15,370 nucleotides of DNA, from assembly GCA_900556055.1 (NCBI GenBank), contig USNJ01000028.1:1-15370 (forward strand), given 5' to 3'. A program made the translations under genes and the position numbers. Below the pieces are notes generated by a model, which was given only the letters and a program-made list of their open reading frames with translations, was not told where the DNA came from and searched no databases. Below are positions 1 through 15,370 of the stretch, piece by piece. Position 1 is the stretch's first letter; each line of letters opens with the position of its first letter. Source of the DNA: an uncultured Ruminococcus sp. GTDB taxonomy: Bacteria > Bacillota > Clostridia > Oscillospirales > Ruminococcaceae.

Positions 1-381
1 TGCGAAATTCGTCAGCCCCACCATTTCCAGCATGCTGTCCGCGATGTCCTCGCGCTCATCTTTGGGGACGTGCATTATCTCCAGCGGGAGCATCACATTC
101 CTGCGGACTGTGCGCCAGTCATAGAGCACCGGGCTCTGGAACACTATGCCGTATCGCTGCGCCAGCCGGGCTTCCCGGGGAGTTACCCCGCCGACCGTTA
201 TCTTTCCGGAGGTCGGGTGGAGCAGATCCGCGATAATTCTAAGGAGCGTTGTCTTGCCGCAGCCCGAAGGTCCGAGCAGGCAAACAAATTCTCCCTCGTC
301 TGCACTCATGCTGACATTATTGAGCGCCGTAAAGCTGCCGTATTTTTTAGTGATGCCTTCTGCTCTGAGTAATTCCGCCAT
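1..381 (-). CDS. ABC transporter ATP-binding protein, NitT/TauT (SsuB/TauB-like) type, partial (C-terminus outside window)
   Basis: This is the ATPase of an ABC importer of the nitrate/sulfonate/taurine class. It would energise uptake of a small organic solute through a membrane permease. The ATG at 381-379 opens a frame that runs off the left edge, giving 127 residues. Visible elements are the N-terminal beta strand with KKYG (about residues 12-15), Walker A GPSGCGKTT (about 37-45), and the Q-loop region VFQSPVLYDWRTV (about 92-104), whose trailing tryptophan is typical of SsuB/TauB-like proteins. The signature, Walker B and H-loop lie outside the window. A purine-rich AGAGGGGG precedes the ATG. 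Its promoter shares an octamer with the promoters of the aminotransferase and eutA genes. I therefore infer that the substrate is an aminoethyl compound such as 2-aminoethylphosphonate, taurine or ethanolamine. The substrate cannot be read from the ATPase itself; thiamine-precursor uptake (ThiZ-like) is an alternative. Confidence 0.9.
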   Translation of the reverse strand, partial: MAELLRAEGITKKYGSFTALNNVSMSADEGEFVCLLGPSGCGKTTLLRIIADLLHPTSGKITVGGVTPREARLAQRYGIVFQSPVLYDWRTVRRNVMLPLEIMHVPKDEREDIADSMLEMVGLTNFA

Positions 382-657
382 AATTAGCGCCCCCTCTTAT
401 CGGTTTACAAATACGGTGATCGTTTTTGCTCTCTCCGTATCGTTTGATTATAGTATAGCTTGGTGCCAGGGTAATGTAAATATAATTTTTGAAAGTTTGT
501 GTTAATAAACATTCATTTTTGAATCCAACAGCAGTTTTTGTACAAAACCATCAAATCATCATTCTATCGTGTTTTATCTGTTATAATTTGATTAACAGAG
601 CCGCAAGATTGACTTGATTATGCAAGATACCAAGTTAAACATTGCATTGCGATGTAT
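382..657. other. Intergenic region without a supported gene
   Basis: This AT-rich stretch lies between the minus-strand ABC gene and the terminator of the aminotransferase gene. It holds the ABC promoter and a short unsupported inverted repeat (ACTTG/CAAGT, about 611-635). A plus-strand TATAAT at 582-587 has no convincing -35 at 17 bp. One plus-strand frame of 53 codons starts at 620 but has no ribosome binding site and overlaps the aminotransferase gene antisense, so it is not called. Confidence 0.6.
452..480 (-). promoter_or_regulatory. Sigma-A promoter of the ABC ATPase gene with TGGCACCA operator in spacer
   Basis: On the minus strand the -35 is TTTACA (480-475), the spacer is exactly 17 bp and the -10 is TATACT (457-452). 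The octamer TGGCACCA occupies spacer positions 7-14 (468-461). The start point would fall near 445, leaving about a 64-nt leader before the ATG. The -35 and -10 each match consensus at 5 of 6 positions. The octamer has the same placement in two other promoters of this window, so it is read as a regulator binding site. Confidence 0.75.
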
Positions 658-694
658 TAAAAAAATCGGTGCGGCTCATATGGACCGCATCGAT
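658..694 (-). terminator. Rho-independent terminator of the aminotransferase gene
   Basis: On the minus strand, 16 nt past the stop codon, ATCGATGCGG (694-685) pairs with CCGCACCGAT (674-665) with one A/C mismatch. The loop is 10 nt and contains CATATG. The right arm is followed directly by a run of six T (664-659). This ends the phnW-like transcript before the ABC gene's promoter region. Confidence 0.75.
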
Positions 695-710
695 GCAGAA
701 ATTATTCCGA

Positions 711-1844
711 TCAATATTCAGCGGGAATTGAAACACCCGTTGCAATGCATGCTTCCTCAAAGACCTTCCAGAAGTTCTTGATGTCCTCGGGATAGATCTG
801 ACCAAGTGTGCAAAGGCGGAACGTATCCGTGCTTGCGACCTTTCCGGGATAGATAGTAAATCCGCGCTCGTAGCAATAATCATGGATCTTCTTGAAATCC
901 CAGTTAGGATCGTTCGGATACTTTATGGAAACTACCATGCCGCTCTGCCATTCACGCTTGATGATATCCCTGAAGCCAAGGCGTTCCTTGCCCTCGTGGA
1001 TAGCATTCCACACATCGATATGACGCTGATAACGCTTTTCTTCGCCGTCTGCCCAATATTCGAGGATCGCCTGCTTCGTTGCATAAACGGTCTGAACGGG
1101 AGGTGTAAAATGCATCTCGCCTGTTTTCTCGAAGAAATCATACTGGAGATAAAGATTGCAGTAATAGGAGCGTGTCGGGTAATCCTTGGACTTTTCGATA
1201 AGCTCCTTATTTCCGACGATAAACGAAAGTCCCGTGAATGCCATAAGTCCCTTCTGAGCGGATGCCATAACGAAGTCGATGTTGTCCCTGTCCATGTCGA
1301 TAGGGATCATTGCGTATGTCGATGTAGTATCAACAACAAATGTGCAGCCGTATCTGTGAGCGATCTCGCCTATATCCTTGATAGGATTGAGAATTCCTGT
1401 GCCTGTTTCATTGTGTGTTGTATAAACAACAGCGATATCGGGATCGGATCTCAGCGCTTCCTCGACCTTTGCGAGATCGGGACGCTCATCAAAAGCAAAT
1501 TTCATATCAATATATGGCAGATGATAATACTGTGCGACCTCAACGCCTCTTGATGTATATGCGCCGTTATCAACGAACAGTATCTTCTTGCCCTCAGGCA
1601 GCAGCGAGTTCACGCAAACGTCGATATTCATTGTGCCTGAACCTGTGAACAGTACCGATGTGTACTTTTCGGGATCGCCGTGAACGATCTTCACAAGCTC
1701 ACCCCTCATCCATCTCATGATATCACCGAATTCCTTTTCACGGGGACAGATATCGGGAACGACCTGTGCGTATTTAACGGTATCAGTCGTTGTTGCGGGT
1801 CCGGGGTTTAAAAGTACGTTTCTTTTTACAGGTTCAAATGCCAT
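711..1844 (-). CDS. phnW: Class V PLP-dependent aminotransferase, 2-aminoethylphosphonate--pyruvate transaminase-like
   Basis: The predicted protein is a 377-residue fold-type I aminotransferase of the PhnW/AGXT group, cytosolic, with no signal peptide. PhnW moves the amino group of 2-aminoethylphosphonate to pyruvate, giving phosphonoacetaldehyde and alanine. Visible signs are an N-terminal LLNPGPATTT (11-20), a phosphate-binding GSGT (68-71), THNETGTG (143-150), Asp172 in VDTTST (expected to contact the pyridine nitrogen) and the likely Schiff-base Lys198 in ASAQKGLM. The N-terminal part resembles 2-AEP transaminases, while the SAQKGLM context is closer to serine/alanine-glyoxylate enzymes, so the substrate is uncertain. 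I chose the ATG at 1844 because AAAAGGAG lies about 9 nt upstream; an in-frame ATG at 1886 has no such site. The gene has its own promoter with the shared octamer and its own terminator. No phnX or pepM gene is visible in the window. Confidence 0.85.
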   Translation of the reverse strand: MAFEPVKRNVLLNPGPATTTDTVKYAQVVPDICPREKEFGDIMRWMRGELVKIVHGDPEKYTSVLFTGSGTMNIDVCVNSLLPEGKKILFVDNGAYTSRGVEVAQYYHLPYIDMKFAFDERPDLAKVEEALRSDPDIAVVYTTHNETGTGILNPIKDIGEIAHRYGCTFVVDTTSTYAMIPIDMDRDNIDFVMASAQKGLMAFTGLSFIVGNKELIEKSKDYPTRSYYCNLYLQYDFFEKTGEMHFTPPVQTVYATKQAILEYWADGEEKRYQRHIDVWNAIHEGKERLGFRDIIKREWQSGMVVSIKYPNDPNWDFKKIHDYCYERGFTIYPGKVASTDTFRLCTLGQIYPEDIKNFWKVFEEACIATGVSIPAEY

Positions 1845-1897
1845 AATAAACAGCTCCTTTTCGTATGTTGCCTTAGCGGTTTTCATTTGACAAGCTT

Positions 1898-1926
1898 ATG
1901 GTAACATGGTGCCAACATTGTGTCAA
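1898..1926 (-). promoter_or_regulatory. Promoter of the phnW-like gene with TGGCACCA operator in spacer
   Basis: On the minus strand the -35 is a consensus TTGACA (1926-1921), the spacer is 17 bp and the -10 is TACCAT (1903-1898), preceded by an extended TGT. TGGCACCA lies at spacer positions 7-14 (1914-1907). The weak -10 (4 of 6) and the octamer inside the spacer suggest regulated expression. The predicted start near 1891 leaves a leader of about 47 nt. Confidence 0.75.
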
Positions 1927-1946
1927 TAGCAAATTTGTGATATCAT
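1918..1946 (+). promoter_or_regulatory. Divergent promoter of the EamA gene overlapping the phnW-like promoter
   Basis: On the plus strand TTGTGT (1918-1923), a 17-bp spacer and TATCAT (1941-1946), preceded by TGA as an extended -10, form a plausible promoter. Its -35 overlaps the -35 of the opposing phnW-like promoter. The shared octamer (1907-1914) ends three bases upstream of it. A protein bound there could affect both directions. Confidence 0.55.
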
Positions 1947-1968
1947 CAGAGCAAAGGAGATGATCAAA

Positions 1969-2835
1969 ATGATCGCACTGCTGCTTATAGCATCGGCTGT
2001 CTGCCATGCAGGCTGGAACATTATCGCAAAGGGCGCAAAGGACAAACTGACATTTCTGTGGTGCCAGATCGTGTTCGCAGCTGCTGTGATGACGGTGCCG
2101 GTTCTGCTTTTCTGCCCTGCCCCGAAGCCCAAAGTATATATCTTCCTTGCAATATCGGGGATCATGCAGGCGGCGTATTATTTTCTGCTCGCAAAGACAT
2201 ATTCTATCGGCGAGATATCGGTAGTATATCCGCTGACAAGAGGAAGTGCGCCCGTGTTTGTGTGCCTGTTTTCGGCACTCGTGGGAACAGAAAACATCAC
2301 TCTGCCTGTATTTCTGTCAGTCCTGATGATATTCGCAGGGATATATACCGTGAATATGAAAAAATTCTCAGCAGAGGAATTCGCCGCCCCGATAAAGACG
2401 CTTGCAAAGGTCCCGCAGACACGCCTTGCGCTGCTGAACGGTCTTATCGTTGCCGCCTACACAATGAGCGACAGCCGTTCCGTCGGATACTGCGATCCGC
2501 TTATGATATACTGGGTGATAGCAGTCATTCCCGCCGTTCTACTTGCGCCAATGATAATAAAGCGAGGCAGATTATCGGAAGAGATAAAATGCGGCAAATT
2601 CAGGATAGCTGCCGTTTCACTTCTGACATTTGCGGCATATTTTCTTGTGCTGACGGCTATGAAGCACGCCGGAGCAAGCTATGTATCCGCAGTCAGGGAA
2701 ATGTCGGTGATATTCGTTGCCGTTTACTCTGCCGCAAAGCTGAAAGAAAGTCTGCCTGCGTCCAAGATAGCGGGATCGGTCATGATATTTGCGGGAATAG
2801 TGCTGCTTTCGTATTTCAGTGAAAAAATATCTTGA
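1969..2835 (+). CDS. EamA/DMT-superfamily membrane transporter
   Basis: The predicted protein is a 288-residue integral membrane protein made almost entirely of hydrophobic segments, consistent with the ten-helix EamA (drug/metabolite transporter) architecture of two five-helix halves. Recognisable pieces are the N-terminal CHAGWNIIAKGA (about 11-22) and the end of each half, with FAGIYTVNMKK and a closing MIFAGIVLLSYF. The start at 1969 is preferred because AAAGGAGA ends 8 nt before it. The ATG at 1960 abuts that site and is too close. The gene sits between the divergent phnW-like gene and eutABC, and its stop codon overlaps the -35 of the eutA promoter. No EutH permease is present in the window, so import or export of ethanolamine or a related amine is a reasonable guess, but it is only positional inference. 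EamA proteins have diverse substrates. Confidence 0.85.
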   Translation: MIALLLIASAVCHAGWNIIAKGAKDKLTFLWCQIVFAAAVMTVPVLLFCPAPKPKVYIFLAISGIMQAAYYFLLAKTYSIGEISVVYPLTRGSAPVFVCLFSALVGTENITLPVFLSVLMIFAGIYTVNMKKFSAEEFAAPIKTLAKVPQTRLALLNGLIVAAYTMSDSRSVGYCDPLMIYWVIAVIPAVLLAPMIIKRGRLSEEIKCGKFRIAAVSLLTFAAYFLVLTAMKHAGASYVSAVREMSVIFVAVYSAAKLKESLPASKIAGSVMIFAGIVLLSYFSEKIS

Positions 2836-2860
2836 CATTATGTTGGCACCAAGATATAAT
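2832..2860 (+). promoter_or_regulatory. Consensus promoter of eutABC with TGGCACCA operator in spacer
   Basis: TTGACA (2832-2837), a 17-bp spacer and TATAAT (2855-2860) match both sigma-A hexamers perfectly. TGGCACCA occupies spacer positions 7-14 (2844-2851), within the larger inverted repeat TTGGCACCAA. A promoter this strong for a catabolic operon normally needs repression, which fits a repressor seated between -35 and -10. The start is predicted near 2867. Confidence 0.85.
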
Positions 2861-2880: not shown

Positions 2881-2927
2881 TGGCAGCAATGGCGTTGTAT
2901 TACAGCGTCATCGGCTGCCATTTTTTT
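2881..2927 (+). terminator. Intrinsic terminator-like hairpin in the eutA leader (candidate attenuator)
   Basis: TGGCAGC (2881-2887) pairs with GCTGCCA (2914-2920). After a small bulge, ATGGCGTTG (2889-2897) pairs with CAGCGTCAT (2903-2911), with two G-T wobbles, across a 5-nt loop. Seven T follow (2921-2927). The hairpin lies downstream of the eutA promoter and a few bases upstream of the eutA ribosome binding site. It may terminate the EamA transcript, but any RNA begun at the eutA promoter must also cross it, so it can act as an attenuator. Confidence 0.75.
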
Positions 2928-2944: not shown

Positions 2945-4357
2945 GTGGAAGAAAAAATACTGAGTGCGGGCATTGATGTCGGCACGTCCACAACCCAGGT
3001 GATATTCAGCCGCATGACAGTCAGGAACACCGGCGGCTTCGGAAGTGTGCCAAAGATCGAAATAACCGACAAGGAGATCATCTACGAGAGCGGCATAATG
3101 TTCACTCCGCTTCTCTCGGAAAATGAGATTGACAGCAGCGGAGTCAAGGCGATAGTTTCGGAAGAATACCGCAGATCGGGCATCTCACCCGAGGACATTT
3201 CAACGGGTGCTGTCATCATCACGGGAGAAACATCACGGAAGCGGAATGCATCTGCCGTTGCTGCGGCACTTTCGGAATTTGCGGGAAGCTTCGTGGTCGC
3301 TGCGGCAGGTCCCGATCTTGAATCCGTCCTTGCGGGAAAGGGTTCGGGCGCTGCGGAGCTGTCTGCCGAGACAGGGAAAATCACCGCAAATTTCGACATT
3401 GGCGGAGGAACAACAAACATCTGTGTTTTCCGTGACGGCGTTCCTGCCGATACCGCATGTCTTGACATAGGCGGACGGCTCATAAAGGTGAACAGTGAGC
3501 ATAGGATAACCTACATTTCACAGAAACTCGGCAGGCTTATGCAAATGAAAAATATTATCCTGAATGTCGGGGATATTCTTGACGAAGCATTGGCGGATAT
3601 CATAGCATCGGAAATGACGGAAGTGATAGAACAGGCGGCAGGTCTGAGAGATCCCGATAAAAGACTTGATCTTATGATAACAAATCATGGTCTGACAAAA
3701 GGAATATCACCTGAGATCATCACATTTTCGGGCGGCGTTGCCGATTGTATGAACGGAGGCGGAGATAAATTCCGCTATGGAGACATCGGCGTTTTTCTGG
3801 GCGAAGCTGTCAGCCGTTCGCCGCTGCTTACCCCGTTTATGACAGAAAGCTCGGCGGAAACTATCCGTGCGACAGTCATAGGTGCGGGAAATTTCAGCAT
3901 GGAAGTCTCGGGCAGCACGATAGAATACAAAGGCTGTTCCCTGCCGATAAAAAATATCCCCGCCGCGGGATTGAAGCTTGATTCCGCGGACGATCTTCCG
4001 ATGCTTGCCGAGCAGGTCAGCGAAGCACTGTCACGATATGAAGCACCGCTTACGGCTCTCACCTTCAAGGGTATCCCCTGCCCGTCATTTGCGCAGATCG
4101 AAGCTATGGCAGACGCTTTCTTTGATGGCGCACATGAGTATATCTCCGAGGGAAAGCCGCTTATCCTCGTGATGGAAGCTGACACGGGAAAGGCACTCGG
4201 TCAGGCTCTGAAGCGGCGCATAAAAGGCAGCTGCGGATTTGTCTGCATTGATGGGATATCCTGTTCGGACGGCGATTTCATCGACATCGGCGAGCCGCTC
4301 GCACACGGCAAGGTGCTGCCTGTTATCGTTAAAACACTGATATTTTCAATGGGGTGA
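2945..4357 (+). CDS. eutA: Ethanolamine ammonia-lyase reactivating factor EutA
   Basis: EutA is the ATP-dependent chaperone that removes damaged cobalamin from ethanolamine ammonia-lyase so that fresh adenosylcobalamin can bind. The 470-residue product matches the family length (E. coli EutA is about 467). It shows the ASKHA nucleotide-binding pattern: phosphate-1 loop DVGTSTT (about residues 11-17) and phosphate-2 loop DIGGGTTN (about 151-158). A later stretch, TFSGGVADCM, matches the adenosine-region glycine pattern. The start is a GTG. I prefer the one at 2945, with GGTGA five bases upstream; the GTG at 2936 is in frame but has only a crowded AAAGGG. It is the first gene of a tight eutABC operon, with only 4 nt between its stop and the eutB start. 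Both the operator and the leader hairpin precede it. Confidence 0.92.
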   Translation: MEEKILSAGIDVGTSTTQVIFSRMTVRNTGGFGSVPKIEITDKEIIYESGIMFTPLLSENEIDSSGVKAIVSEEYRRSGISPEDISTGAVIITGETSRKRNASAVAAALSEFAGSFVVAAAGPDLESVLAGKGSGAAELSAETGKITANFDIGGGTTNICVFRDGVPADTACLDIGGRLIKVNSEHRITYISQKLGRLMQMKNIILNVGDILDEALADIIASEMTEVIEQAAGLRDPDKRLDLMITNHGLTKGISPEIITFSGGVADCMNGGGDKFRYGDIGVFLGEAVSRSPLLTPFMTESSAETIRATVIGAGNFSMEVSGSTIEYKGCSLPIKNIPAAGLKLDSADDLPMLAEQVSEALSRYEAPLTALTFKGIPCPSFAQIEAMADAFFDGAHEYISEGKPLILVMEADTGKALGQALKRRIKGSCGFVCIDGISCSDGDFIDIGEPLAHGKVLPVIVKTLIFSMG

Positions 4358-4361
4358 TTTT

Positions 4362-5741
4362 ATGGCATACAAAGTCAGACTGTACGGACGGACATACGAA
4401 TTCGGCAGTGTCCGTGAGGTTATGGCAAAGGCAAACGAGCTGAAATCGGGCGACTGTCTTGCAGGGATAGCCGCAGAGGATGCAAAGGAACGCATTGCCG
4501 CAAAAATGGCGCTTGCAAACATGACTGTGCATGAGATAAGGGAAAATCCCGCCGTGCCTTATGAGCTTGATTCGGTCACAAGGATAATCCAGGACGATCT
4601 GAATATCCCGATATACAATGAGATCAAGGGCATGACTATCGCCGAGCTTCGTGAATGGATGCTCGACAGCGCAACAACGGGAGATATGATACTCCGTGCG
4701 GGACGGGGCATGACAAGCGAGGTCATAGCCGCCGTATGCAAGCTGATGGGAAATCTTGACCTTATGTATGCTGCGAAAAAGATCGACATTGTGACCCACT
4801 GCAACACATCGGTAGGTCTTCCAGGAACTATGTGTTCACGTCTTCAGCCAAATCACCCGACAGATGATCCGAAAGGTGTTGCCGCATCTCTGCTCGAGGG
4901 ACTTTCCTACGGCATGGGCGATGCTGTTATCGGGCTTAATCCCGCAACGGATTCAGCTGATTCGACAGGCGAAATACTCCGACTTTTCAAGGACGTTATG
5001 AACAAATACGAAATACCGACACAGAACTGCGTTCTTTCCCATGTAACGACGCAGATGGAAGCTATCCGCAGAGGCGCACCCGCCGATCTCTGCTTCCAGT
5101 CGATAGCAGGCTCCGAAAAGTCAATGGACGCTTTCGGTGTGACGGTCGGAATGCTTGAAGAAGCAAACGAACTGATGAGGACAGACGGCACGGGAACAGG
5201 TCCGAACTATATGTATTTCGAAACAGGACAGGCATCGGAACTTTCCTCGGACGGTCACAACGGCTGGGATCAGCAGACGATGGAATCACGCTGCTACGGA
5301 CTTGCACGGCACTATTCGCCGTTTCTCGTGAACACGGTCGTCGGCTTTATCGGTCCTGAATATCTCTACGGAAGCGATCAGATACTGCGTGCGGGTCTGG
5401 AGGACAATTTCTGCGGACACGTCCACGGTCTGCCTATGGGCTGCGACGTATGCTACACGAACCACAACACCTGCGATCAGAGTGCAATGGATAACCTGCT
5501 CGTGATGCTCGGTGCTGCGGGCGTAAACTATGTCATGGCTATCCCGCACGGAGATGATATCATGCTCATGTATCAGACGACGGGACATCATGACGTATTC
5601 GCAGCACGTGAGATACTCGGTCTGAAACCAAATCCCGAGTTTGAAAAGTGGATGATGAAGTGGGGCATAATCGACGAAAACGGCAGATACACCGACCGTG
5701 CGGGAGATCCGACCATATTTGGCGAGGGGGCGATCATATGA
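4362..5741 (+). CDS. eutB: Ethanolamine ammonia-lyase large (catalytic) subunit EutB
   Basis: EutB is the TIM-barrel catalytic subunit of the AdoCbl-dependent lyase that converts ethanolamine to acetaldehyde and ammonia. The product is 459 residues, about family length. Residues that bind substrate in the Salmonella/E. coli enzyme appear at matching numbers: Arg160 in CSRLQPNHP, Asn193 in GLNPATDS and Glu287 in YFETGQ. The segments NTVVGFIGPEYLYG and GLPMGCDVCYTNHN are strongly diagnostic. The ribosome binding site GGGGTGA coincides with the end of eutA, suggesting translational coupling. The enzyme needs adenosylcobalamin, but no cobalamin adenosyltransferase gene or cobalamin riboswitch is visible nearby. 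Nothing in the sequence suggests a broken gene. Confidence 0.97.
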   Translation: MAYKVRLYGRTYEFGSVREVMAKANELKSGDCLAGIAAEDAKERIAAKMALANMTVHEIRENPAVPYELDSVTRIIQDDLNIPIYNEIKGMTIAELREWMLDSATTGDMILRAGRGMTSEVIAAVCKLMGNLDLMYAAKKIDIVTHCNTSVGLPGTMCSRLQPNHPTDDPKGVAASLLEGLSYGMGDAVIGLNPATDSADSTGEILRLFKDVMNKYEIPTQNCVLSHVTTQMEAIRRGAPADLCFQSIAGSEKSMDAFGVTVGMLEEANELMRTDGTGTGPNYMYFETGQASELSSDGHNGWDQQTMESRCYGLARHYSPFLVNTVVGFIGPEYLYGSDQILRAGLEDNFCGHVHGLPMGCDVCYTNHNTCDQSAMDNLLVMLGAAGVNYVMAIPHGDDIMLMYQTTGHHDVFAAREILGLKPNPEFEKWMMKWGIIDENGRYTDRAGDPTIFGEGAII

Positions 5742-6526
5742 ATTTCAATTCCTTTTTCGACTATGAACATAACGATATAACTGCGATAAAAATGCAGGAG
5801 TTCTGTCTGCTGAGTTCTCCCGAGGATCCGAAGCAGATGCAGCTGCTGAAAGAAAAAACGCCCGCCAGGATAGGCATGGGACACTGCGGCGCACGCTATC
5901 CGACAGCTTCATATCTCAGGTTCCGTGCGGATCAGGCGGCGGCTGCGGATGCCGTATTTGCCGAAGTTGACAGCGGGCTTGTCAAGGAATTGGGACTCTT
6001 TGAGGTGCGCACCAGATGCGAAAACAAGCATATGATGCTGACACGTCCCGACCTCGGCAGGCTGTTTGACGAGGAAACTCAGAAGATCATCTCCGAGCGA
6101 TGCAGGCACGATGTCGATGTCCAGATATATGTCGGCGATGGGCTTTGTGCGCCGAGCGTAGGTGCAAATGTCCCCGATATTCTGCCTGCTGTCACAAAGG
6201 AGCTTGAAGCGGAGGGCGTGACTGTCGGAACTCCGTTTTTCGTGAGATACTGCCGTGTAAATACAGCAAGGACTATCGCTCCCCTGCTGAATTCAAAGCT
6301 CACCTGCGTGCTTATCGGCGAGCGGCCCGGACTTCTGACAGCGGAAAGCATGTCGGCTTACATGGCTTACAATGCCCGTCCCGATATGCAGGAATCGGAA
6401 TATACCGTAGTTTCAAACATCAGCCGCCATGGTATCCCGCCCGTTGAGGCAGCAGCGCATATAGCCGAGCTTATGCTTGAGATACTGAAGCAGAAAAAGA
6501 GCGGAGTTGAATTGAAGCTTACGTAA
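5738..6526 (+). CDS. eutC: Ethanolamine ammonia-lyase small subunit EutC
   Basis: EutC is the small subunit that, with EutB, holds adenosylcobalamin. The product is 262 residues, shorter at the N-terminus than the E. coli protein (about 295), where the extra segment includes an N-terminal targeting/solubility extension. The loss fits the absence of microcompartment shell genes in this window. Diagnostic stretches are ARIGMGHCGARYPT, YVGDGLCAPSVG and ISRHGIPPVEAA. The ATG at 5738 overlaps the eutB stop by four bases (ATGA) and has a GAGGGGG site about 7 nt upstream. An in-frame ATG at 5648 would lie inside eutB and is not used. A strong terminator follows. Confidence 0.95.
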   Translation: MNFNSFFDYEHNDITAIKMQEFCLLSSPEDPKQMQLLKEKTPARIGMGHCGARYPTASYLRFRADQAAAADAVFAEVDSGLVKELGLFEVRTRCENKHMMLTRPDLGRLFDEETQKIISERCRHDVDVQIYVGDGLCAPSVGANVPDILPAVTKELEAEGVTVGTPFFVRYCRVNTARTIAPLLNSKLTCVLIGERPGLLTAESMSAYMAYNARPDMQESEYTVVSNISRHGIPPVEAAAHIAELMLEILKQKKSGVELKLT

Positions 6527-6646: not shown

Positions 6647-7498
6647 ATGTCGGAGAAAACACATAACAGAATGCTTGGCTGCATGACCAAGTCGCCGCTT
6701 TCCTTTTCGGTCTGCGGACAGCTCATCAGTCCATCGGGATTTTTGCATCACCGCCGCCGATTTGACGAAAATGTGCTTATAATGATAACAGAAGGCACTC
6801 TTTATATCACAGCGGACAATGCCGAACACACTCTTTCGGCGGGACAGTATATCCTCCTGCCTGCGGGAGAAGAGCATTTCGGTCACCGTCCGTCAGACGG
6901 AAGATTATCATATTTATGGACGCATTTCAGATCTGACTGCGGCTTTGAAGAGGCAGATGACAGCAGTGCTGAATATACATATCTTCTGCCCGAAGCATCG
7001 GCTGTCTTTTCATCGGGAATAACTGCACAGCTGTTTCATCGGCTGATAGATATCTCGCTTGAAGAGGATAACTACACAAAAACCATGTCGGATTACACGC
7101 TGAGCCTGCTGCTTATGGAGCTTTCGCAGGAGCATCTGCGGAGCCGTGACAGCAGCCTGACACTTCCGCCGCTCGTCATTTCGGCAAGAGAATGGATCAG
7201 AGATCACTGTTATATGCCGTTCGATGTTTCCGAGCTTGCGCACGCTCTCGGTTATCGTGCTGATTATCTGTCATCGGTTTTCAAGCGCAGCATGGGCATT
7301 TCGATCGTCCGATACACAAATCGGCTGAGGATAAATACCGCAAAAAATCTCCTGCCGAACTATGGCGTGACAATAAAAGAAGCCGCATATTCCTGCGGCT
7401 TCTCTGACGAAAAATATTTTATGAAGGTATTCAAAGAACTGGAAGGCATGACGCCCACTCAGTATAAGAATTCATTTGAGCGAAAAAATTTCGGCTGA
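6647..7498 (+). CDS. AraC-family transcriptional regulator (cupin sensor plus double HTH)
   Basis: The 283-residue product is a cytosolic one-component regulator. The N-terminal half has a cupin-like AraC ligand-binding fold: ITEGTLYITADN (about 47-58) and AGQYILLPAGEEHFG (about 65-79). The C-terminal 100 residues carry two helix-turn-helix motifs, the first around LAHALGYRADYLSSVFKR (198-214) and the second around IKEAAYSCGFSDEKYFMKVF (243-262). The GMTPTQYK that ends the domain is characteristic of the family. The neighbouring gene, convergent with a 2-bp gap, encodes a GH127-like arabinofuranosidase, and such regulators often control nearby glycan genes, so a sugar effector is the first guess. 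E. coli EutR is also AraC-type, so control of eutABC is possible but not supported by the operator data, since AraC sites are usually direct repeats. Confidence 0.93.
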   Translation: MSEKTHNRMLGCMTKSPLSFSVCGQLISPSGFLHHRRRFDENVLIMITEGTLYITADNAEHTLSAGQYILLPAGEEHFGHRPSDGRLSYLWTHFRSDCGFEEADDSSAEYTYLLPEASAVFSSGITAQLFHRLIDISLEEDNYTKTMSDYTLSLLLMELSQEHLRSRDSSLTLPPLVISAREWIRDHCYMPFDVSELAHALGYRADYLSSVFKRSMGISIVRYTNRLRINTAKNLLPNYGVTIKEAAYSCGFSDEKYFMKVFKELEGMTPTQYKNSFERKNFG

Positions 7499-12289: not shown

Positions 12290-14032
12290 TTAAGCTCTTT
12301 CAAGCTTCCAGCCTGCCGCCTTTTCCCTTGCGGCAATAAAATCGGCATATAATCCCTTTTGTGAAATAAGCTCGGAATGAGTACCCTCCTGAACTATGCT
12401 GCCGTTCTCAACTGCAATTATGTGGTCGGCATTTTTTATGGTGTTAATGCGGTGAGCTATCATAATGACCGTTTTGCCACGGGTAAGTTCGCCCAGTGCA
12501 GATAATATCTTCTGCTCATTTTCAGCATCGAGCGCACTTGTGGCTTCATCGAGGATTATAATGGGCGAATCCTTAAGTATGGCTCTTGCAATGGATATTC
12601 TCTGCTTTTCACCGCCCGAAAGACTGCTTCCGCCCTCCGAAAGAACTGTATCATAACCATTCGGAAGTTCTCTTATAAAATCATCGCACCTTGCCGCTTT
12701 TGCAGCTAAATAGACCTCTTCGTCCGAAGCGTCGGGCTTTCCGAAGCGGATATTGTTGGCGATGGTGTCCGAGAACAGATAGGTCCGCTGAAACACAAAG
12801 GAGAAATTGCGGATGAGGCTGTCGTAGCTGTACTCCCGCACATCGTGCCCACCAAGGCTCACGCTGCCTGACTGCACGTCCCAGAACCGCGCCATAAGAT
12901 TGCACAGCGTGGTCTTGCCGGAGCCGGAGGGGCCGACGATAGCAACAGTCGTTTTCTCCGGGATGGTCAGGGACACATCGTGCAGAATGGGCTTGCTGTC
13001 ATAGGAGAAATTCACATGGGACAGGGTGATGTCCTCCCGTTCCGGCGACAGATCCTCCCCATCAATATCCATGGGCTCCACACGCAGAATCGCGTTTGCC
13101 TTATCTACGCCGATGTCGATGGAGCGGAACAGAGCCGAAAAGCTCCCGGCAGAATCCAGCTGCTCAAAGAGGATGAAGGAGCAGATCAGCATCAAAAGGC
13201 AGTTTGTCAGCTCCATCGTTCCGCCGAAGTAAAAGACGATGGCGGCCGCGCAGACGGCGACACCGGTGAGCTTGTTGACAACAAACTGCGCCAGCATATA
13301 AAGTACCGACGGAATCTCCATGGCAAAGGAAGCCTTGCGGGCCTCCTCCACCGCGCCGTGTACCTGCGTGGCGGAATCGTGGGTCAGGTCGAAGTTCTTG
13401 ACCTCGGCGATACCCTGCACATATTCCAGCACCTTGGACACAAGCCGCTCGTCGGCATTGAACTTCCGCTGGGAAAGGGCCTGCTCCGCCCGCTGCATGG
13501 CGGCGTTGACGGCGAAGAACAGCACCAGTCCCGCCAGCGTAATAAGCCCCATACGCCAGTCAAAGAGGAACATCATCGCTGCGATGATGCCGGAGGTCAG
13601 AAAGCCGCGGGTCGTGACCATTACCACGCGGGTAGCCACATTCGCCATGTTTTCCATGGTGTTGGTGGTGACGGACGTGACCTCGCCGAGGCTGTTGTCA
13701 TTGAACCAGCCCATAGGCAGGTAGCGCAGGTGCTCGGCGATTTCGATGCGTTTGTTGGCGCAGGCTCGGTAGCCCGCACGGGTCTGGAGCATGGTGGCCT
13801 TCATGTTGATGGCGATGGTCACAATCAGTGATGCAACGATGATGCCGAGGCTCGTCCATAAAGTTGCCATAGTGACGTTCCTTTCCAGCAGCGCCTGAAT
13901 GACGATGGCGGCTGCCGGAATACGCATGGCAGAGCAAATGGCGCTGACCACACCCAGCCAGATAGAGGCGATGAACATTCTGCGGTTGTCCTCACCGCAG
14001 AAATCAAAGAACTTTTTCAGTGTCTGGAACAT
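12290..14032 (-). CDS. ABC exporter half-transporter (TMD-NBD), second gene of a heterodimeric pair
   Basis: The 580-residue product has an N-terminal six-helix exporter domain (about 1-320) and a C-terminal nucleotide-binding domain. The NBD shows Walker A GPSGSGKTT (about 362-370), Q-loop VFQRTYLF, signature LSGGEKQR (about 470-477), Walker B IIILDEAT and the H-loop in IAHRINT. Its catalytic glutamate is present. It would export a drug, peptide, lipid or siderophore-like compound, or act as a YbtPQ/IrtAB-like importer; the sequence does not decide. The ATG at 14032 overlaps the stop of the upstream gene by one base (TAATG) and has GGAGGTG close upstream. Base composition and codon choice change within the gene near 12715: the last 140 or so codons use TTA, ATA and AGA, while the rest uses CTG, ATC and CGC. 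Confidence 0.93.
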   Translation of the reverse strand: MFQTLKKFFDFCGEDNRRMFIASIWLGVVSAICSAMRIPAAAIVIQALLERNVTMATLWTSLGIIVASLIVTIAINMKATMLQTRAGYRACANKRIEIAEHLRYLPMGWFNDNSLGEVTSVTTNTMENMANVATRVVMVTTRGFLTSGIIAAMMFLFDWRMGLITLAGLVLFFAVNAAMQRAEQALSQRKFNADERLVSKVLEYVQGIAEVKNFDLTHDSATQVHGAVEEARKASFAMEIPSVLYMLAQFVVNKLTGVAVCAAAIVFYFGGTMELTNCLLMLICSFILFEQLDSAGSFSALFRSIDIGVDKANAILRVEPMDIDGEDLSPEREDITLSHVNFSYDSKPILHDVSLTIPEKTTVAIVGPSGSGKTTLCNLMARFWDVQSGSVSLGGHDVREYSYDSLIRNFSFVFQRTYLFSDTIANNIRFGKPDASDEEVYLAAKAARCDDFIRELPNGYDTVLSEGGSSLSGGEKQRISIARAILKDSPIIILDEATSALDAENEQKILSALGELTRGKTVIMIAHRINTIKNADHIIAVENGSIVQEGTHSELISQKGLYADFIAAREKAAGWKLERA

Positions 14033-15370
14033 TACGCCACCTCCCCATCGTCTTTGACGCTGATGTGGGCTTCCCACATGGCTTGATAAAGCGGGCAGGA
14101 AGCAAGCAGCTCCGCCTGCGTGCCGGTCGCTTCGATCTTGCCTTGATTGACAACAATGATCTGATCGGCGTCCGCAATGGTGGACAGCCGGTGGGCGATG
14201 ACCAGCAGCGTCTTGCCCCGCACCAGCTTTGCCAGTGCAGACTGGATGACCGCCTCATTCTCCGGGTCGGTGTAGGAGGTGGCCTCGTCCAAAATGACGA
14301 TGGGCGCGTCCTTCAGCATGGCACGGGCAATGGAGATGCGCTGCCTTTCACCGCCGGACAGATGCCCGCCCGACGCGCCGCATACGGTCTGATAGCCGTT
14401 CTCCAGCCCCATGATGAACTCGTGGCAACCGCATTTCTTCGCGGCGTCAATGACCTCCGCCTCGGTCGCGCCCTTTCTGCCCATGCGGATGTTGTCCATC
14501 ACCGAAAGGTCAAAGAGATAGTTGTCCTGGGATACATAGGCGATGCGCTTCGTGCACTCCGCCAGCGGCAGCGTGCGAATGTCCACACCGCCCAGCTCGA
14601 TAGAGCCGTCCTTCACGTCCCAAAGGGAGGCGATGAGCCGGGCGATGGTGGATTTTCCACTGCCGGAAGGCCCGACCAATGCGTTGACCGTCCCCGGGGC
14701 AATGTGTAGATTGACTCCGTGCAGTACCTCCTTGTCGTGATAGGCAAAGCGGACATCTTTCAGCTCGATGGAGTTGTCCGCAGGCAGCTTTTCCGCACGT
14801 TCCGGACGCTGCATATCCTCGCCGGACAGCACCTCCGCCACCTCGCCCACGATGGTCGTCACCTGTGCAATGTCGTCGGTGTAGGAAAAGGCGGTGATCA
14901 GCGGCTGCATAACGCCGAAGGAAAGCACGATGACTGCCAGAAATGTTTCTGCCGACAGTGTGCCGTGTATATAGAGAAGGCACCCCACCGGCAAGATGCC
15001 GAGAAGCGTTGAAGGGAGTATCGCCATTCCGGCTACCTGCCCGAAGAGGCTGCCCCGCATCCAGTCGATGAAGCAGTCTGCCCCTTCCTTTGCAGCAGAG
15101 ACAAACTTTGCGTAGCTGGTTTTGGACTGACCGAAGGCCTTGATGACCTCAATGCCGCTGATGTACTCGACTGCCGTGTCGTTCAGTGCCTTTGTCGCGG
15201 TGACCGTGCGCTGAAACTTTTCGTGATAGCCGCTGAACATGGACATAAAGCAGATAATGCCCAGCGGCACGACGATCAGCATGGAAAGCCCCATGCGCCA
15301 GTCCTCGAGAAACAGCAGCACCAGCACCGCCAAGGCGCCGACGATGTTGGCTGTCATTTCCGGCAGAAGG
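12715..15370. other. GC-rich segment with foreign-looking codon usage
   Basis: Counting G+C in sampled 60-bp rows gives 42% at 12541-12600 and 42% at 12661-12720, then 57% at 12721-12780, 62% at 12841-12900 and 67% at 13441-13500. The rest of the window to the left looks like the lower value. The change falls inside one intact reading frame, between the Q-loop and signature codons of the downstream exporter gene. No repeat, tRNA or transposase marks the boundary. Confidence 0.75.
14032..15370 (-). CDS. ABC exporter half-transporter (TMD-NBD), first gene of the pair, N-terminus outside window
   Basis: The frame is open to the right edge of the window, so the ATG at 15357 is internal and the first one to two transmembrane helices are missing. 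The visible 445 residues contain the later exporter helices (FLEDWRMGLSMLIVVPLG and onward) and a full NBD: Walker A GPSGSGKST, Q-loop VSQDNYLFDLSV, signature LSGGERQR, Walker B IVILDEAT and H-loop IAHRLST. The D-loop reads SYTDPENE instead of the usual SALD, a variant known from YbtPQ/IrtAB-like pairs. It overlaps the next gene by one base, so the two products should form a heterodimer. The whole visible part is GC-rich compared with the left 12.7 kb. Confidence 0.92.
   Translation of the reverse strand, partial: LLPEMTANIVGALAVLVLLFLEDWRMGLSMLIVVPLGIICFMSMFSGYHEKFQRTVTATKALNDTAVEYISGIEVIKAFGQSKTSYAKFVSAAKEGADCFIDWMRGSLFGQVAGMAILPSTLLGILPVGCLLYIHGTLSAETFLAVIVLSFGVMQPLITAFSYTDDIAQVTTIVGEVAEVLSGEDMQRPERAEKLPADNSIELKDVRFAYHDKEVLHGVNLHIAPGTVNALVGPSGSGKSTIARLIASLWDVKDGSIELGGVDIRTLPLAECTKRIAYVSQDNYLFDLSVMDNIRMGRKGATEAEVIDAAKKCGCHEFIMGLENGYQTVCGASGGHLSGGERQRISIARAMLKDAPIVILDEATSYTDPENEAVIQSALAKLVRGKTLLVIAHRLSTIADADQIIVVNQGKIEATGTQAELLASCPLYQAMWEAHISVKDDGEVA

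Follow-up and report, generated by a model that had tools for sequence, protein, structure and literature searches.

We analysed a 15,370-nucleotide stretch of DNA from an uncultured Ruminococcus sp. (the window) together with its relatives. Searching species genomes with the PhnW protein of the window as the query gave 46 loci, among them one from an uncultured Ruminococcus MAG (L001, genome G001) and one from a Roseburia MAG (L002, genome G002). The left end of the window cuts off phnT2 (1..381, minus strand), which encodes the ATPase of a putative aminoethylphosphonate (AEP) ABC importer. The NitT/TauT-type label originally given to this gene has been replaced by PhnT2, the best NCBIfam family for the truncated piece (117.5 bits); its full-length counterpart in L001 scores 457.8 against a cut-off of 457.7, or 455.4, just under, in a six-frame reading. 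Next to it lies phnW (711..1844, minus strand), encoding a 2-aminoethylphosphonate aminotransferase (TIGR03301, 443.5 bits; cut-off 360.8), whose start was set at the ATG behind AAAAGGAG by reading the sequence.

Between phnW and eutA stands a gene for an EamA-type membrane protein (1960..2835, plus strand; NCBIfam/Pfam), for which phn_DUF6 is the nearest family, under its cut-off. The ethanolamine ammonia-lyase genes follow on the plus strand: eutA (2945..4357, with a GTG start at 2945 or 2936; PF06277, 548.9 bits), eutB (4362..5741; NF011649, 655.4 bits, cut-off 554) and eutC (5738..6526; NF003971, 266.3 bits, cut-off 230). Acetaldehyde is the product both of AEP breakdown by PhnW plus PhnX and of ethanolamine breakdown by EutBC, with the release of phosphate and ammonia. 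The window shows phnW only, while phnW and phnX are both present in G001 and both in G002. In the right part of the window (about 12600-15370), within an ABC exporter gene, the G+C content climbs from 0.42 to 0.55-0.60, as if this end were acquired, recombined or chimeric.

Predicted operators at phnT2, phnW and eutA

The original prediction had described an identical octamer, TGGCACCA, at a fixed spacer position in three promoters. The corresponding 29-mer pattern, TTKACA-N6-TGGCACCA-N3-TANNNT, has three exact, in-register copies in the window, where the earlier reader had located them, and never arises in 200 dinucleotide shuffles of the window (mean 0, largest 0). They lie at the promoters of phnT2 (452-480, minus strand), phnW (1898-1926, minus strand) and eutA (2832-2860, plus strand), and contain predicted 16-bp operators at 457..472, 1903..1918 and 2840..2855, respectively. 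The spacer is 17 bp in all three promoters, which match the sigma-70 consensus TTGACA-17-TATAAT at 10, 10 and 12 of 12 positions; their flanking bases differ. On its own, the octamer has four copies in the window (shuffle mean 0.43; 1/200 shuffles reached four). Its fourth copy (2059-2066, minus strand) sits within the phn_DUF6 reading frame and is not part of a promoter. The partial inverted repeat that had also been described is a perfect decamer, TTGGCACCAA, at just one of the three sites, that of eutA; the corresponding bases are CTGGCACCAA at phnT2 and TTGGCACCAT at phnW.

TGGCAC resembles the sigma-54 -24 element and TGGCACC resembles the T-box motif UGGNACC. This is a match of letters only, and we consider it scarcely credible that the element is either a sigma-54 promoter element or a T-box RNA motif. 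The pattern TGGCACN5TTGCW occurs at chance level (12 matches with two mismatches; mean 8.9), and among the three octamers only that of phnW matched it, with two mismatches. Moreover, the octamer lies upstream of the predicted transcription start, and no T-box was found in a search with Rfam.

L001 has the same gene order as the window; behind its PhnT2 come PhnU2 (645.7; cut-off 593.25) and PhnS2, which is truncated and scores 324, under the cut-off of 392.75. Its phnW promoter reads TTGACG-N6-TGGCGCCA-N3-TAGAAT and its phnT2 promoter TTTACA-N6-TGGCAACA-N3-TATAAT, both in the register of the window, and one of these two sites has one changed octamer base. At L001 eutA, TTGGCGCCAA lies outside the spacer, two bases upstream of the -35 element; this site has left the spacer and kept its bases, which indicates that the operator is separable from the promoter. 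Similarly, the phnW promoter of L002 (TTGACG-N6-TGGTACCA-N3-TATACT) carries the site in register, at the head of the genes phnW, phnX and a GntR/UTRA regulator, and a pattern scan found an in-register site, TTGACATCCTGTTGGTACCAAGTTATCTT, at the phnW promoter of a further genome, G637. The site is therefore kept upstream of orthologues, at three of three promoters in L001 and at phnW in L002 and G637. The claim of a fixed register holds for seven of the eight sites, which lie in the spacer, but not for L001 eutA.

The eight sites define a partly symmetric operator with the core TTGGYRCCAA. Invariant in all eight are TGG, the second C and the final A of the octamer, and a G and a T at two and four places 3' of it. 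Symmetric pairs occur at 4, 3 and 2 bases from the centre in 8/8, 8/8 and 7/8 sites and at 8 bases in 7/8, while positions 1, 5, 6 and 7 are symmetric in just three or four of the eight. Where the site lies in the spacer, as it does in seven cases, its outermost T doubles as the first base of the -10 element. The phnW operator of the window is identical to those of L001, L002 and G637 at 13/16, 12/16 and 13/16 positions, respectively, and the region from -80 to -15 of the octamer at 21/65, 18/65 and 17/65. Downstream of the phnW -10 element, 19/28 bases are kept between the window and L001. Within the regions 1870-1926 of the window and 5436-5490 of L001, GCTTGTCAAATGA follows the -10 element in both and is absent from L002; this stretch may be a second element.

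A tree of 42 phnW proteins unites the four operator-bearing ones in a single clade (support 100/100), which spans Oscillospiraceae and Lachnospiraceae. Six of the 46 loci (L041-L046), being partial or remote matches, were omitted from both the tree and the scoring of upstream regions, and L029, with 95 bases upstream, from the scoring alone. The 13-position score derives from the sites of the window, L001 and L002, which match it by construction; G637, which took no part in building it, scores 12/13. None of the 37 other phnW loci scored (of 38) exceeds 11/13. Within the 20 kb of L111, two further positions also reach 12/13, and one of these lies in phnW.

Specificity and reach of the site

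We scanned genomes with TTKACR-N6-TGGYRCCA-N3-TANNNT, using the reversed pattern as a control. Among 297 genomes of the family of L001 there was one match, the phnW of L001 itself, and among 392 genomes of the order of L002 seven genomes matched, two of them at phnW (L002 and G637) and five elsewhere. The reversed pattern gave no match in either set, and the pattern with one extra base, a control for register, none in the 297 genomes. Since the L001 and L002 sites were known before the scans, G637 is the sole blind find. The five other matches of the 392-genome scan are background. Two of them (L105 and L106) are copies of one stretch outside the listed frames of at least 90 residues, which itself reads as coding; another lies within a 1009-residue frame (L108), and another between frames at a contig end, where no downstream gene is listed (L110). 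In G341, a full in-register match, TTGACGCAGATATGGCGCCATGCTATAAT, precedes an unrelated gene (L107:1501-1529).

That the sites arose by chance or by copying of a promoter is very improbable. The window holds just three of them and both sets of pattern matches include unrelated ones, but the absence of the 29-mer from all 200 shuffles, the differing flanks of the three promoters, the retention of the site at orthologous promoters and the G637 match all speak against it.

A genome-wide regulon was not supported, as TTGGYRCCAA occurs three times in G001, which is not above the reversed control (four). In G002 there are nine copies against four for the control, eight of the nine lying within listed frames (the ninth is L097). 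The two G001 copies away from eutA lie between frames, one upstream of a gene read as gdhA-like, the other of one read as encoding a membrane protein; neither fits the in-register pattern, of which G001 has a single match. The first of these regions contains a perfect TTGGCGCCAA (L087:1501-1510) upstream of a gene reading as glutamate dehydrogenase, not in promoter register. The set under control therefore looks small and local. A PhnT2-type transporter was also sought in G002 and rejected: the best match (L099, 383.9) falls under the cut-off of 457.7, and the two TGGNNCCA matches there read TGGGACCA and TGGTCCCA, not TGGYRCCA.

The eut genes are linked to the site in just two loci, those of the window and L001. 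Of the 18 eutA loci in the family, 17 are without the site, that of G001 alone reaching at least 12 of 13 within 400 bases. The element is real and operator-like, and it marks a mini-regulon of phosphonate control that is unusual in taking in ethanolamine ammonia-lyase. What stands of the shared control circuit first proposed is that a conserved site links transport, transamination and ethanolamine lysis; what changes is that the transporter is a putative AEP importer, which makes AEP and ethanolamine the theme, and that the set is local.

The eutA leader and the candidate regulator

The eutA leader is predicted by folding to contain a terminator-like hairpin followed by seven T (2881..2927, plus strand; the fold of 2867-2950 has -28.5 kcal/mol, z -3.37). 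It begins about 14 nt after the predicted transcription start, with a similar placement in L001. Folding and reading of the leader show just this hairpin, the model search having covered Rfam alone. It may act in attenuation or be left over from antitermination, and eutABC may have a second layer of control. In each of the three other genomes of the family examined (of 17 with eutA), eutA has an ANTAR gene no more than about 1.5 kb away, whereas the single ANTAR match in G001 lies away from eut, beside a gene read as dapF, so that the eut genes here may have left EutV-type control. Upstream of eutA in L068 and L074, repeated AACAG-type hairpin loops precede a terminator, with ANTAR genes nearby; these leaders are probable EutV targets.

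A search for a regulator gene that accompanies the site had been proposed. A GntR/UTRA gene adjoins phnX in both G001 (L049:1173-1937) and G002 (L002:2415-3143), where it is the sole UTRA match in either genome and the neighbouring phosphonatase gene scores over its cut-off. The candidate belongs to the GntR/HutC group, with a GntR winged helix at its N terminus and a UTRA domain at its C terminus: PF07702 is over its cut-off, and PF00392 and PF07702 are listed for clusters P0001 and P0006. It matches YvoA over residues 16-232, covering both domains, and its best NCBIfam model is TIGR02325, the PhnF equivalog, at 101.3 and 113.8 bits, both under the cut-off of 156.8. The protein is rare: a single search of 5.8 billion proteins gave six clusters at E 1e-10, and a profile search gave 27. 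There was no match in the five other genomes of the genus of L001 (E 1e-20) nor in 391 of the 392 genomes of the order of L002 (E 1e-30), a set that includes G637, which thus has the site and no regulator detected at E 1e-30. The gene is not within the window, and that of G001 (L049) has no in-register site of its own. We infer that the G001 contig bearing phnX and the regulator (C214) continues the transporter operon of another (C45); the first 32 residues of C214 match no family.

The gene within the window that might encode the binding protein is an AraC-type regulator (6647-7495). Although it lies behind eutC and has an AraC DNA-binding domain, it is most unlikely to be the one: a convergent GH127 glycosidase gene comes next, its own promoter is without the octamer, and in L001 there is no such gene in the 680 bases behind eutC. 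More broadly, the operator could be real and bound by another protein, an activator or a repressor encoded elsewhere, the GntR/UTRA protein having a different role. The centre of the L001 eutA site falls near -42, a position also used by activators; no UTRA relative was found in G637 at E 1e-30, and the HutC consensus, as given in passages of PMC4494728, is not matched. We nevertheless regard another binder as unlikely, since the GntR/UTRA gene is the sole UTRA match and phnX-adjacent in both G001 and G002, repression suits sites inside the spacer, and half-site residues are partly retained. The operator, TTGGYRCCAA, departs from the HutC type, GT-N4-AC (NyGTMTAKACNy); according to passages of PMC4494728, GT and AC are separated by four bases in most HutC sites, with exceptions named. 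With the GG/CC spacing off this rule, the choice of the GntR/UTRA protein leans mainly on co-occurrence.

Proposed mechanism and comparison with known systems

Our main reading, to which we give a probability of about 0.68, is that the octamer is the core of a conserved, predicted operator at the putative AEP importer, phnW and eutABC, and that it is likely bound by one PhnF-like GntR/UTRA repressor, which would keep the three promoters shut in the absence of AEP and its breakdown products. In the organism of the window, the DNA to the left of this stretch would contain phnU2, phnS2, phnX and the regulator gene. The GntR/UTRA protein would bind the predicted sites and repress, either by filling the spacer of an ideal 17-bp promoter or by abutting the -35 element; a protein lying between -35 and -10 would block polymerase, which favours a repressor. 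AEP or phosphonoacetaldehyde would be the ligand that releases it. The logic would be head-group salvage, with the use of AEP and of ethanolamine switched on together; acetaldehyde, as the shared product of the PhnW-PhnX path and of EutBC, would account for a joint response. A more far-reaching history is tentative and, on balance, doubtful: a rare gut-Clostridia GntR/UTRA clade would have moved its operator to a compact in-spacer GG-YR-CC palindrome and captured eutABC from EutV-type antitermination, giving one head-group regulon that salvages AEP and ethanolamine on a single signal.

The analysis yields a testable predicted operator and a named candidate regulator for AEP use in Clostridia. 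For a bacterium that feeds on membrane head groups, having a phosphonate and ethanolamine in one control unit would make sense; as a marker of rumen protozoa, AEP has been both employed and questioned (passages of PMC4659874). In the parts covered of the full-text, open-licence literature we found no paper that connects AEP control with that of ethanolamine ammonia-lyase.

Among known systems, PhnF provides the best NCBIfam model of the candidate. This protein of the GntR/HutC type represses phosphonate transport and C-P lyase genes, and part of PMC10574752 describes it as an operon repressor. Unlike PhnF, the candidate scores under the cut-off, its predicted targets are the PhnWX path and eut rather than C-P lyase, and the operator departs from the HutC rule. 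The substrate-responsive PhnWX regulators described in passages of PMC9311074 and PMC10574752 are LysR-type. One of them, AepR of Pseudomonas putida BIRD-1, resembles the system proposed here in its substrate-responsive control of phnWX, but it belongs to another protein family, each AepR is considered to control the operon next to it, and the passages on it in PMC9311074 describe no eut genes. The terminator-like hairpin in the eutA leader recalls EutV (ANTAR) antitermination; however, the roughly 14 nt predicted ahead of this hairpin would leave no room for the dual hairpin described in part of PMC3369931, and the single ANTAR gene of the L001 genome lies away from eut.

The best solved relatives over both domains are the HutC repressors NagR/YvoA and DasR (4u0v, E 4e-14), which also have palindromic operators. 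The wing Gly and Arg48 of NagR are kept in the candidate, whereas Arg38 is Asn; all eight aligned rows (six different clusters) have this Asn and keep Arg48. The roles of the two arginines are treated in passages of PMC4333415. Asn at HTH position 28, taken here to correspond to NagR Arg38, showed a weak, not significant preference for A/T pairs in the part of the HutC study consulted (PMC4494728), and would fit the T before G in TTGG. Unlike the wider HutC spacing, GG and CC are two bases apart here, and if the GntR protein binds, this compact site would be a new case of half-site spacing in the GntR family.
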